Assembly: GCA_024398105.1 (NCBI GenBank)
Contig: JAKSJP010000021.1
Location: 1-42,466, forward strand
Direction of reading: 5' to 3'
Source of the DNA: Bacteroidales bacterium
GTDB taxonomy: Bacteria; Bacteroidota; Bacteroidia; Bacteroidales; UBA932
DNA length: 42,466 bases
Made by a program: the position numbers and the translations under genes. The notes below the pieces were generated by a model. That model saw nothing but the letters and a program-made list of their open reading frames with translations, was not told the origin of the DNA and did no database searches. This document shows, piece by piece, positions 3,804-5,990 of the stretch (position 1 is its first letter; each line of letters opens with the position of its first letter).

Positions 3804-4100
3804 CTATTGAGTCCTCTGATATTCGTCGGCAAGAATTCGTGCTTTCTCTACGTCAAACACGATGCGCCTGCCTATCTGAGATACTATTGCATCTTCAAGA
3901 ATGCCCTGCTTCTTGAGGGTGTAAATGGTGCTTTGGCAGCAGCCAATCTTTTCGGCAAGTTCGCTCACGCCATGAGCATAGGAATGTGAGACAGGCATGG
4001 GAGTCTGGTGGTCGGTTTTACTAAGCTCGTTGAGCTGGAGAAACTCCTCTCCCGTCATCTGACAGAGGAATTTTGTAAGGAGATCATTTGATTGAGACAT
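3804..4100 (-). CDS. DUF3853-like helix-turn-helix protein
   Basis: A 98-residue protein. The second half, GVSELAEKIGCCQSTIYTLK followed by KQGIL and IGRRIVFDVEKARILADEY, is an excisionase/MerR-type winged helix-turn-helix with the recognition region around residues 45-75. The N-terminal segment LLTKFLCQMTGEEFLQL resembles DUF3853 proteins, which are common in mobile islands of Bacteroidales. No integrase or transfer gene lies nearby. It sits just downstream of the DUF1016 nuclease gene, separated by a strong terminator-like hairpin, and in the same A+T-richer islet. It probably binds DNA; the target is unknown. Confidence 0.7.
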   Translation of the reverse strand: MSQSNDLLTKFLCQMTGEEFLQLNELSKTDHQTPMPVSHSYAHGVSELAEKIGCCQSTIYTLKKQGILEDAIVSQIGRRIVFDVEKARILADEYQRTQ

Positions 4101-4246: not shown

Positions 4247-5359
4247 TTATTTCAGGAGCTTCTTCATCTCGTCTTCGTCAGGAAGAAGTTCCTTGAGTTT
4301 TTCCTGATTGGACTTATAGGTAGCGACGCCCATAGGTCTGGTGTAGTCCTGCAGAACATACTCAACGTATGCGCGGTCGGCATCCTTACAGAGAACTATT
4401 CCAAGCGAAGGATTCTCACCCTCGATTCGTTCCTCATCATCCAAAACGCGCAGATATGCGGCAAGCTGCCCGAGATATGCCGGTTTGAATGAACCTTTCT
4501 TCAGTTCTATCACAACCAACGATTTCAGCACACGATTGAAGAACAGGAGATCGACCCAGTGGTCATGTCCGAGTTTGTCATAGTGGACTTGATTGCCAAG
4601 ATATGTGAATCCGCGTCCAAATGTCATGATGAAATTCTTTACATTGTGGACTATCTCGTTCTCAACGACCCTCTCATCAATATCTTCATCCCTTTCGCCC
4701 AACTGTTCCACATTGATGTATTCCAGAAGATACTCATTCTTGAACATCTGAATGGCCTGGAATGCACGTTTGTAATCCGGAATAGTCATTCCGAAATTAT
4801 TAGGCATCTTTCCCTGATTATGAAAAGCATCTTCTGAAATTTTGCGCTTGAGAGCATCGTCAGACAGAGAAAGATCAGCACAAAGTTGTATGTAGAACTT
4901 ACGTTCCTCTTCGTTCTTTACCTTTGTAAGAATCGTACAATGATGCGTAAAACCTATGCTCAAAAATGCCGCCCACGGAAAATCAGAGAAATTCGCCAGT
5001 TGTAACTGGCGAATTTCAACTTCCTCAGAATCAGCATTTTGTAAATCGCCAGCCATAACTGGCGATTTAGATTCTAGCGATTCCCATTCTTCATAAAAGG
5101 ATCGCATTGACTTTAGATTTGACGGAGAAAAACCCCGCAAACCAGGTATCTCTCGGCTCAATTGTTCGCTGATTGCTGAGATTGCACCCTTACCCCAGAA
5201 ACCCTCACGACTATTTTGGGAAATAAACCTACCAATCCCATAATACAACGCCAGCTGCTCTTGATTCACGCCTTTCAAGGCCTTCGCTTGACTTTGGAGA
5301 ATCGCGGTTTTAATCTGCAGTACCGCATCATTATATTCCGTAGTAAGTTTCTCTTTCAT
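4247..5359 (-). CDS. DUF1016 (YhcG-type) PD-(D/E)XK nuclease family protein
   Basis: About 370 residues, a normal length for this family. The N-terminal DUF1016_N winged-helix part holds LALYYGIGRFIS, WGKGAISAISEQLSREIPG and GFSPSNLKSMRSFYEEW. The C-terminal PD-(D/E)XK nuclease part holds the core WVDLLFFNRVLKSLVVIELK, with D277, E292 and K294 when counted from an upstream TTG at 5380. I prefer the ATG at 5359, since a TATATTTG promoter core covers 5378-5385. The linker between domains is encoded by two perfect DNA hairpins. DUF1016 nucleases occur with restriction and mobile-element loci and are suspected in genome defence; the cellular role is not settled. A truncated second copy lies directly upstream. 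Confidence 0.85.
   Translation of the reverse strand: MKEKLTTEYNDAVLQIKTAILQSQAKALKGVNQEQLALYYGIGRFISQNSREGFWGKGAISAISEQLSREIPGLRGFSPSNLKSMRSFYEEWESLESKSPVMAGDLQNADSEEVEIRQLQLANFSDFPWAAFLSIGFTHHCTILTKVKNEEERKFYIQLCADLSLSDDALKRKISEDAFHNQGKMPNNFGMTIPDYKRAFQAIQMFKNEYLLEYINVEQLGERDEDIDERVVENEIVHNVKNFIMTFGRGFTYLGNQVHYDKLGHDHWVDLLFFNRVLKSLVVIELKKGSFKPAYLGQLAAYLRVLDDEERIEGENPSLGIVLCKDADRAYVEYVLQDYTRPMGVATYKSNQEKLKELLPDEDEMKKLLK
4988..5017. repeat. Perfect palindrome A in the DUF1016 linker
   Basis: Arms of 14 bases (4988-5001 and 5004-5017) with a 2-base loop, lying inside the coding region. The core is CGCCAGTT-N2-AACTGGCG. On the minus strand it encodes EIRQLQLANF. Its core matches palindrome B but is translated in another frame. 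Confidence 0.85.
5042..5069. repeat. Palindrome B in the DUF1016 linker
   Basis: Arms of 11 bases (5042-5052 and 5059-5069) with a 6-base loop. It shares the TCGCCAGTTA...CTGGCGA core with palindrome A, 53 bp away centre to centre. It encodes KSPVMAGDL, a different reading frame of the same core. Confidence 0.85.
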
Positions 5360-5377
5360 ACATATGATTGTCTTGCT

Positions 5378-5385
5378 CAAATATA
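5378..5385 (-). promoter_or_regulatory. Candidate -7 element of the intact DUF1016 gene
   Basis: The minus strand reads TATATTTG, an exact TAnnTTTG match, 18 bases before the ATG at 5359. It decides the start codon choice. It lies inside the tail of the decayed copy. Confidence 0.5.
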
Positions 5386-5764
5386 GCGATTTTCCGGCAT
5401 ATCGTCTTTCCCAGCTCCAAGATAAACTGCTTCATATGCTCAAGGAGAGAAGCATGCAATTGATGTTCGTTGTGCTTATCCTTCAAACCGAGAAAATCAA
5501 GAACAGCCCTGTCCTTTAGCAAAGATTCCGCATTAGGATATGTGCTTAAGAGGGAAGGAGACAGCATCTTGTCCTTATTCATGACAGACTCAAAGGTCTG
5601 TGTCACTATACATCGTCTCAACTCTTCCTGCTTAAGATGTTGCTGGCCGGAATAGAGTATGTAGAATACTCTCTCTTCATTGCGAGAGCATCGATTCAGG
5701 ATCTCCACATGATTGGTGAAGGATGTCAATGCAAGAATCCGAGGTATCTGTGGTATGGACATTT

Positions 5765-5783
5765 GTGCAGTTGGCAACTGCAC
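5765..5783. repeat. Palindrome in the decayed DUF1016 linker, copy 1
   Basis: GTGCAGTT (5765-5772) and AACTGCAC (5776-5783) form a perfect 8-bp stem with a 3-base loop. It encodes VQLPTAQ on the minus strand and is nearly identical to copy 2. Confidence 0.8.
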
Positions 5784-5800
5784 TTTTGGCTGTGCTGCTA

Positions 5801-5825
5801 TTTGTGCAGTTTGCGACTGCACAAA
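5801..5825. repeat. Palindrome in the decayed DUF1016 linker, copy 2
   Basis: TTTGTGCAGT (5801-5810) and ACTGCACAAA (5816-5825) form a perfect 10-bp stem with a 5-base loop. It encodes VQSQTAQ. A weaker third hairpin with one mismatch lies at 5828-5834/5844-5850. Confidence 0.8.
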
Positions 5826-5951
5826 TTCACTCAGTCGCAATTGCTGAATGAGACCACTAAAGCCGGAATCGCCATATACTTCATAGAACTTGACCATATT
5901 ATAGAGATTCCTCTTGCTATAACCTCTACGCTTGGGATTATGTCTCTCCGC

Positions 5952-5990
5952 AGAAAAGTGGCTTACAGATATCTGTAAGCCACTTTTTCT
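5952..5990. terminator. Intrinsic terminator, probably bidirectional
   Basis: A perfect 34-bp palindrome (5954-5987): AAAAGTGGCTTACAGAT and its exact complement, flanked by A and T runs on both sides. It stands 20 bases after the stop of the lysozyme-like gene (6007) and closes the four-gene minus-strand operon. Confidence 0.8.

Follow-up and report, generated by a model that had tools for sequence, protein, structure and literature searches.

The iterons recognized by the O protein of phage lambda are palindromic and type-specific. The N-terminal half of O binds four 19-bp iterons, which are part of the O gene (PMC4488673). A similar arrangement is proposed here for DUF1016 (YhcG), a family of predicted nucleases, starting from the window, i.e., the whole analysed stretch of 42,466 nucleotides (contig JAKSJP010000021.1) from a Bacteroidales bacterium. 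The intact DUF1016 gene of this window (4247..5359, minus strand) holds two palindromes, which are probably the cognate DNA site of the protein encoded by the same gene, a status that rests on co-variation between palindrome and protein. Unlike DUF1016 proteins, O is a phage replication initiator and not a nuclease, and no homology between them is claimed. A parS site inside spo0J would be another precedent, which the literature consulted did not confirm and on which nothing below relies.

According to PMC7383237, the specificity of ParB for parS and that of Noc for Noc-binding sites (NBS) are conserved within each family, and the specificity of Caulobacter ParB depends on four residues (R173, T179, A184 and G201) located in the recognition helix and in a later helix. 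The predicted site of DUF1016 proteins is likewise symmetric and palindromic, and the residues that co-vary with it fall at matching places of the helices. In our reading of the ParB alignment, the residue right after G201 is the conserved His, and a co-varying residue of the SWSH/FTHH motif of DUF1016 likewise comes just before it. The resemblance of the DUF1016 N-terminal domain to the ParB/Noc DNA-binding domains, in fold and in sequence, is suggestive only. Searching the sequences of solved structures gave nothing convincing, the best E-value being 0.45 for one query (A2), while another one (A5) reached 0.004 with uL24m and 0.61 with Spo0J. In contrast to ParB, no cytidine triphosphatase (CTPase) domain was found in the protein of the intact gene (P0001), for which Pfam gives only DUF1016_N and YhcG_C; it carries a PD-(D/E)XK nuclease instead. 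The term ParB-like DNA-binding domain is therefore used here, and not ParB. Furthermore, the DUF1016 site is gene-specific, changes often and usually lies in its own gene, whereas the specificity for parS and NBS is conserved.

Homing endonucleases cut alleles devoid of their gene and are then copied into them; a site located inside the gene of its own nuclease is the opposite arrangement. Rickettsia also has palindromes within genes, which they do not interrupt: the Rickettsia palindromic elements (RPEs), which are selfish, about 100–150 nt long and present in many places (PMC4316617). The DUF1016 palindromes differ from them by their size (26–27 bp), their restriction to one gene family, their fixed place and their tie to a helix of their own protein.

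DUF1016/YhcG was described as a predicted nuclease whose N-terminal domain is given no confident fold match in PMC1189080. The family is the PADLOC phage-defence candidate PDC-S02, a term explained in PMC13356809. No mention of an intragenic site in DUF1016/YhcG was found among the titles and abstract beginnings listed by searches of the open-licence PubMed Central (PMC) literature, a corpus that leaves most subscription papers outside. The principle known from lambda O would recur here in a large nuclease family, with a changing and gene-specific address.

The Intact DUF1016 Gene and Its Palindromes

The intact gene starts with an ATG at 5359, the mechanical open reading frame (ORF) beginning at an in-frame TTG at 5380. 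P0001 belongs to DUF1016/YhcG, both domains being above their curated cut-offs: DUF1016_N (E 2.2e-28, 99.5 bits for a cut-off of 32.8) and YhcG_C, the PD-(D/E)XK nuclease domain (E 3.2e-41, 141.2 bits for a cut-off of 32.5). It also matches the PADLOC profile PDC-S02 (E 4.3e-112), and a search of NCBIfam gave no match.

The two palindromes, which have no strand, share the stem CGCCAG. The proximal one (5042..5069) has perfect arms of 11 nt and a loop of 6 nt, with the half-site AAAT-CGCCAG-TTA, and its centre is 37 nt after the codons of the proposed recognition helix. The distal one (4988..5017) has perfect arms of 14 nt separated by 2 nt, with the half-site AATT-CGCCAG-TTA and a centre 90 nt after these codons. 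They are translated in two frames, the proximal one as KSPVMAGDL and the distal one as EIRQLQLANF. Positions and frames agree with a preliminary description of this DNA, made from its letters alone, which had placed the palindromes in a linker between two domains. The stretch, still called linker below, actually falls within DUF1016_N (residues 22–187 of P0001) and not between the two Pfam domains. In the AlphaFold2 model of P0001, it separates helix 79–95 from the helices found from residue 129 onward and is largely disordered, residues 98–114 having a predicted local distance difference test (pLDDT) below 50 for a mean pLDDT of 75.5.

On the minus strand, the codons of GFSPSNLKSMRSFY (5093..5134) specify the proposed recognition helix, assigned by co-variation and by the AlphaFold2 model. 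S80 (h4), K83 (h7) and S84 (h8) of this helix (ATG numbering) occupy the positions that co-vary with the stem. The helix preceding the turn of the proposed helix-turn-helix (helix 59–70 in the model) corresponds to the codons of WGKGAISAISEQL (5159..5197, minus strand). A second putative DNA-contact helix is encoded by the codons of FTHHCTILTK (4922..4951, minus strand), where the columns of T149 and T152 co-vary with stem position 4. The catalytic motif region (4493..4558, minus strand) includes the D of WVDLLFF (4538–4558) and the E and K of IELKKG (4493–4510).

Palindromes across the DUF1016 Family

Palindromes in this linker are a real and recurrent feature of the sampled DUF1016 family. 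Among 81 full-length genes (that of the window and its relatives, kept out of 113 distinct ORFs for a length above 330 amino acids (aa) and an identity of at least 45%), 72 have at least one inverted repeat with a stem of at least 8 in the linker and 45 have at least two. With loops of at most 8, the linkers contain 121 inverted repeats versus 13 in the remaining parts of the same genes, i.e., 7.6/kb versus 0.16/kb. Shuffling synonymous codons leaves 0.06 repeats per gene instead of the 1.49 observed.

The preliminary description had recognized that such repeats might merely follow from a conserved peptide read in one frame, a constraint that would force a palindromic codon string. Peptides such as NSxVxTxEL and QxxVxQL do recur, but this explanation has practically no chance of being correct: it is refuted by the loss of the palindromes under synonymous shuffling, one DNA is translated in different frames, and the AlphaFold2 model shows a large part of the linker as disordered.

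In a larger set including distant DUF1016 ORFs, mostly from the class to which the window belongs (257 ORFs, kept out of 271 for a length of at least 240 aa), a stricter detector using 13-nt half-sites finds a palindrome in 180 of the 257 ORFs versus 8.2 in shuffles. These ORFs contain 261 palindromes in the stretch that separates the helix GFSxxNLxxMRxFY from the FTHH/SWSH motif and 35 in other places; the corresponding numbers in shuffles are 8.6 and 13.4. Even among the 73 genes with an aligned helix and no strict palindrome, 57 pair at 7–8 of 9 positions near the usual place, for 15.4 expected. The palindromes of one set of relatives were listed for 57 of its 65 matches, and some relatives were fetched from 100 of the genome places listed.

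Linkers carry one to four copies. The half-site consists of AATT (116 of 179 first sites), six variable bases and the centre. The distance from the helix codons to the centre of the proximal palindrome is +36/37 nt for one class of genes (even class) and mostly between +24 and +41 for the other one (odd class). Since the centres are at +24 or beyond and the half-sites are 13 nt long, the palindromes do not overlap the codons of the helix. Many linkers with palindromes, a fixed position and a stem that differs from gene to gene are thus observed, as anticipated from the window.

The feature extends beyond Bacteroidales. In a sample of ten genes (E. coli, plasmids and a phage), five have stems of 11–15 bp in this region (15 bp for E. 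coli K-12 yhcG and Vescimonas, 13 bp for a Salmonella plasmid, 11 bp for Polaromonas and Pseudomonas avellanae). Three others have stems of 7–8 bp, which shuffles yield too (0.25–1.3 per gene), and the last two, from Rhodococcus and phage WO, have no palindrome stem in this region. The gene of the Salmonella plasmid has a further repeat of 14 bp elsewhere.

Co-Variation of the Stem with the Protein

The stem goes with the recognition helix. Helices with ENIKL are found with CGGTAG, SSLKN with CGCCAA, RNLRN with TGGCAG, TNLKN with CGTCAG, RNIKN with CGGCAG and TSMRN with CATCAG. Co-variation was analysed in the 179 genes whose helix has no gap and whose zone contains a palindrome, the rankings being made on 53 and 92 after collapsing equal helix-stem pairs. 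Out of 310–330 protein columns, helix index 4 (residue 5 of GFSxxNLxxMRxFY) comes top for stem position 7, counted from the centre, in both classes (z 20.4 and 20.9). Position 8 is best predicted by index 7 in both classes (11.9 and 14.0), while index 8 is the best column for position 5 of the even class and for position 6 of the odd one. For position 4, the top columns are residues of the FTHH/SWSH helix, with a near tie with an unrelated column in the even class (8.8 vs 8.7). Among the same columns, those of the helix do not come first for position 9, whatever the class, or for position 6 in the even class, and the best column for position 5 in the odd class is not a helix column.

Arg at index 4 is paired with G at position 7 in 72 of 75 genes (27/29 and 45/46), versus 22 of 104 genes with another residue (16/50 and 6/54). 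Thr goes with T (17/18) and Ser with C (13/14) in the even class, and the two are mixed in the odd class. A partial residue-to-base code can thus be read from sequence alone for one contact, with Arg-G in both classes and Thr-T and Ser-C in the even one.

Shared descent does not explain the Arg-G association. On a tree of 176 of the 179 genes, restricted to columns located over 40 residues beyond the point where the FTHH motif starts, Arg/not-Arg and G/not-G undergo at least 34 and 33 changes, respectively. The observed association (phi 0.735) is reached in 0 of 2000 simulations with independent stem evolution (maximum 0.366). Moreover, when the six stem bases are predicted from relatives below 70% identity, matching the helix residues gives 52 exact stems out of 179, versus 20 when the rest of the protein is matched. 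These numbers become 39 versus 8 below 60% identity, and the gain is almost gone below 50% (7 versus 5). Identity was used for this hold-out because single-linkage clusters merged most sequences; a simple rule gave 92/117.

The hairpin could alternatively work in messenger RNA (mRNA), as a self-binding or stability element, which would fit the perfect hairpins of the transcripts and the paired changes of the stem. If duplex DNA is read, G.T should equal A.C among mismatches, whereas folding of the coding-strand RNA should make G.T prevail. The counts of G.T versus A.C are 13 versus 23 at positions 4–9, 59 versus 81 at positions 1–3 and 9 versus 8 at positions 10–13. This absence of G-U excess argues against a hairpin in mRNA, as do the 0–2 nt that full pairing often leaves in the middle and the dependence of the stem letters on helix residues, and this explanation is very unlikely.

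The Arg-G rule holds for 15 of 23 later sites, versus 72 of 75 first sites after the helix, so later sites may be older or serve something else. The first stem is repeated in 47 of 81 later sites (2.9% for random pairs). In four genes (L078, L048, L018 and L147), palindromes of two or three stem types coexist in a single linker, the first stem fitting the helix of the gene and the later ones resembling stems of other helices; these are perhaps fossils of earlier specificities. Paralogues share a stem hexamer in 0 of 38 within-genome pairs versus 9 of 1447 between-genome pairs, a comparison that is uninformative since the expectation is about 0.2.

Alleles of yhcG in E. coli illustrate the same relation. 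Those of an O157 strain, strain 074-17 and K-12 carry one, two or three such palindromes. K-12 and 074-17 differ by a divergent block of 174 columns (242–415; 98/159 identical) that holds both helix and palindromes, its flanks being nearly identical (236/241 and 691/713). From K-12 to 074-17, R replaces K at helix index 4 and G replaces C at stem position 7, in agreement with other odd-class genes, where K is found with C 10 times and R with G in the 45/46 cases mentioned above. A role of the linker as a recombination or diversification site, also proposed initially, is therefore possible. In four other E. coli strains (L160, L161, L163 and L164), yhcG is truncated next to insertion sequence (IS) elements, and a short "DUF1016 N-terminal" ORF is found instead in 10 of 60 records among the matches listed.

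Occurrence of the Stems outside Their Own Gene

As far as scanned, the address is private to its own gene. In the genome of the window, the stem is found with 0 mismatches only at the two sites of the intact gene; two further places have it with 3 mismatches, a number equal to the control. The general even-class pattern has 4 sites in 295 Bacteroidales genomes (that of the window included) and 1 in a viral contig, all of them in DUF1016 genes. Among the new even-class sites, L295 and L299 (RNLKN, CGGCAG) and L296 (Glu at index 4 and G at position 7, as for ENIKL) fit known groups, and L297 (ANSLKN, CGACAA) combines Asn at index 4 with A at position 7, a pairing absent from the earlier set. Of the 5 sites of the odd-class pattern in 149 genomes, 4 fall within DUF1016 genes and the fifth about 21 nt beyond such a gene. 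For a 33-mer from E. coli, the best place is a gene annotated yhcG or DUF1016/PDDEXK in 40 of 40 records (the best 40 of 3526).

This distribution bears on the idea, put forward in the preliminary description, of a small mobile palindrome similar to repetitive extragenic palindromic (REP) sequences, or else to RPEs, with a preference for this linker. The presence of one to four copies per linker and the differences in copy number between E. coli alleles would suit such an element. However, dispersed copies of the REP/RAYT (REP-associated tyrosine transposase) or RPE type were not found with the site of the window and the two patterns scanned. Mobility is largely refuted for the tested patterns, whose genome sites are in DUF1016 genes or just past one, and is extremely improbable as an explanation.

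One observation weighs against a private address and would favour mobility: the short core GTGCARCAG occurs in 22 viral contigs, none of which has a DUF1016 ORF at this place by profile. Two permuted control palindromes of matched composition are found in 11 and 3 viral contigs. In addition, nine of the 22 contigs appear to have one gene context in common, and most of the 22 lack AATT at both ends. Two viral contigs, L338 (around 6953) and L340 (around 5299), have a GTGCARCAG palindrome whose AATT ends are partial about 50 nt beyond an ORF, which we take to be RhuM-like, and there is no DUF1016 ORF there. In L349 and L351, the palindrome belongs to a short viral ORF, close to its end, and its in-frame translation is VQQPVAQVQQPV.

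The true targets could also be foreign DNA (phages or plasmids) bearing the same palindrome, the copy within the gene being a side effect or a feedback tag. The listing of the family by PADLOC among phage-defence candidates and the location of some DUF1016 genes in type I restriction operons (see below) agree with this proposal. In 2.9 million viral contigs, however, three patterns were found in 1, 2 and 0 contigs, where they correspond to DUF1016 genes, and the 22 matches of GTGCARCAG are near the control level. Foreign targets are an improbable explanation. Viral relatives of P0001 searched for by peptide patterns were not confirmed in any viral contig, and 14 records of a phage collection hold a relative.

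An operator at the promoter was considered too and rejected: when the same stem was looked for outside the stop-to-stop ORF, in the flanks of 105 palindrome genes, 4 of the 446 palindromes found there shared 7 letters, for a control mean of 1.1. Two of them are full palindromes with the stem of the gene itself, located past the end of the ORF (41 nt for L049 and 21 nt for L126). The other two are in L082, 1.3 kb upstream, with only 7 letters shared and a stem of another type. L134 has one exact half-arm 32 nt upstream. At codons 5–14 of the stop-to-stop ORF of L132, a full palindrome, CAATTGTGCAACAG.C.CTGTTGCACAATTG, has the same stem as the linker palindrome; located near or before the start of the gene, it is possibly an upstream operator.

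Proposed Function

Sequence statistics document the position of the palindromes, their symmetry, their gene-specific stem, its co-variation with helix residues and the preservation of the catalytic residues. We infer from them that the protein binds the site, and the effects of binding considered below are proposed on the same basis. The protein appears to be best described as a ParB-like domain fused to a PD-(D/E)XK nuclease, with a predicted cognate site in its own gene. Its N-terminal helix-turn-helix domain, similar to those of ParB/Noc, would bind the palindrome of about 26–27 bp as a symmetric pair. The recognition helix GFSxxNLxxMRxFY would read the outer variable bases (positions 5–8 from the centre) and the helix following the FTHH/SWSH motif would read position 4. 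The site would be the DNA coding for the disordered loop between these two reading helices; specificity and target would therefore move as one cassette during recombination or transfer. The initial suggestion of a self-recognition target of the nuclease is thus strongly supported as far as recognition is concerned, the stem co-varying with the putative recognition helix at several positions, and the nuclease might cut there.

The likeliest output, put forward tentatively, is intragenic autoregulation: the protein would sit on its own gene and limit its own expression, thereby restraining a nuclease. It is preferred because the gene would need no protection and because the linkage between target and reader would be explained.

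The catalytic motif D..(E/D/Q)xK is kept in all the 176 palindrome genes in which the region is aligned. The protein thus has the active-site motif of the PD-(D/E)XK nuclease superfamily and is predicted to cleave DNA, and it is unlikely to be only a repressor. The main rival of autoregulation is self-cleavage, which is possible though doubtful. The nuclease would cut its own palindrome, and the break would serve recombination between alleles or paralogues (cassette swap), spread of the gene or destruction of copies with the same address. The conserved motif, the frequent changes of specificity seen on the tree, the cassette difference and the varying palindrome numbers of E. coli all point in this direction. 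So do the varied neighbours, the nearest ORFs belonging to 116 Pfam families upstream and 121 downstream. A gene that cuts itself should nevertheless pay a cost, and a methylase is not usually adjacent: among the neighbouring mechanical ORFs scanned (97 out of 146 upstream, 96 out of 135 downstream), N6_Mtase accounts for 8 of the upstream ones and hsdS for 7 of the downstream ones.

A self-addressing nuclease would be a further, rather unlikely, possibility. Each allele would have, within its gene, a private palindromic address recognized by the ParB-like domain of its protein, and the nuclease would act on DNA bearing this address. If so, the protein would control copies of its own gene and incoming genes of the same specificity, and joint divergence of helix and address would create new, mutually blind types.

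With the predicted self-recognition, a common bacterial gene family, which includes yhcG of E. coli K-12, gains a testable function, as its target would be legible from the gene itself. The family would also be a natural record of evolving protein-DNA recognition, since most of the sampled genes supply a matched helix and site. A site kept within a coding sequence while its stem changes would normally be missed by codon-level analyses and by repeat finders.

Gene Context and Other Features of the Window

The upstream neighbour shares the strand of the DUF1016 gene and is within 50 nt of it in 43 of 146 cases, and the downstream neighbour in 45 of 135. Some DUF1016 genes are located within type I restriction operons (L148, L150 and L151). 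In L148, with two genes between, and in L150, the DUF1016 gene is downstream of hsdS and upstream of hsdR; in L151, it lies between the methylase gene and hsdS. Given this location, a protein bound within the DUF1016 gene could limit hsdR.

In the window, a truncated second DUF1016 copy (5331..5990) lies upstream of the intact gene, on the same minus strand. It lacks the N-terminal start and most of the nuclease domain, matching only positions 2–43 of 157 of the YhcG_C profile. The codons of its helix, GYSKRNLYNMVKFY, are at 5883..5924 (minus strand), with R at h4. Its proximal palindrome (5800..5825, no strand) has its centre at +70 from the helix codons and a G at base 7, as expected with this Arg (position assigned by hand). 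The distal one (5765..5783, no strand) has the same stem, GTGCAG, and both are read in a single frame (FVQSQTAQI and KVQLPTAQM). This pair too is located as initially described.

Between this copy and the next gene, a perfect 34-bp palindrome without loop (5954–5987; AAAAGTGGCTTACAGAT, arms of 17 nt) looks like a bidirectional terminator and not like a DUF1016-type palindrome. Downstream of the intact gene, the window has a DUF3853 gene (3804–4100); a Parabacteroides plasmid (L154) also has such a gene in the vicinity of its DUF1016 gene.

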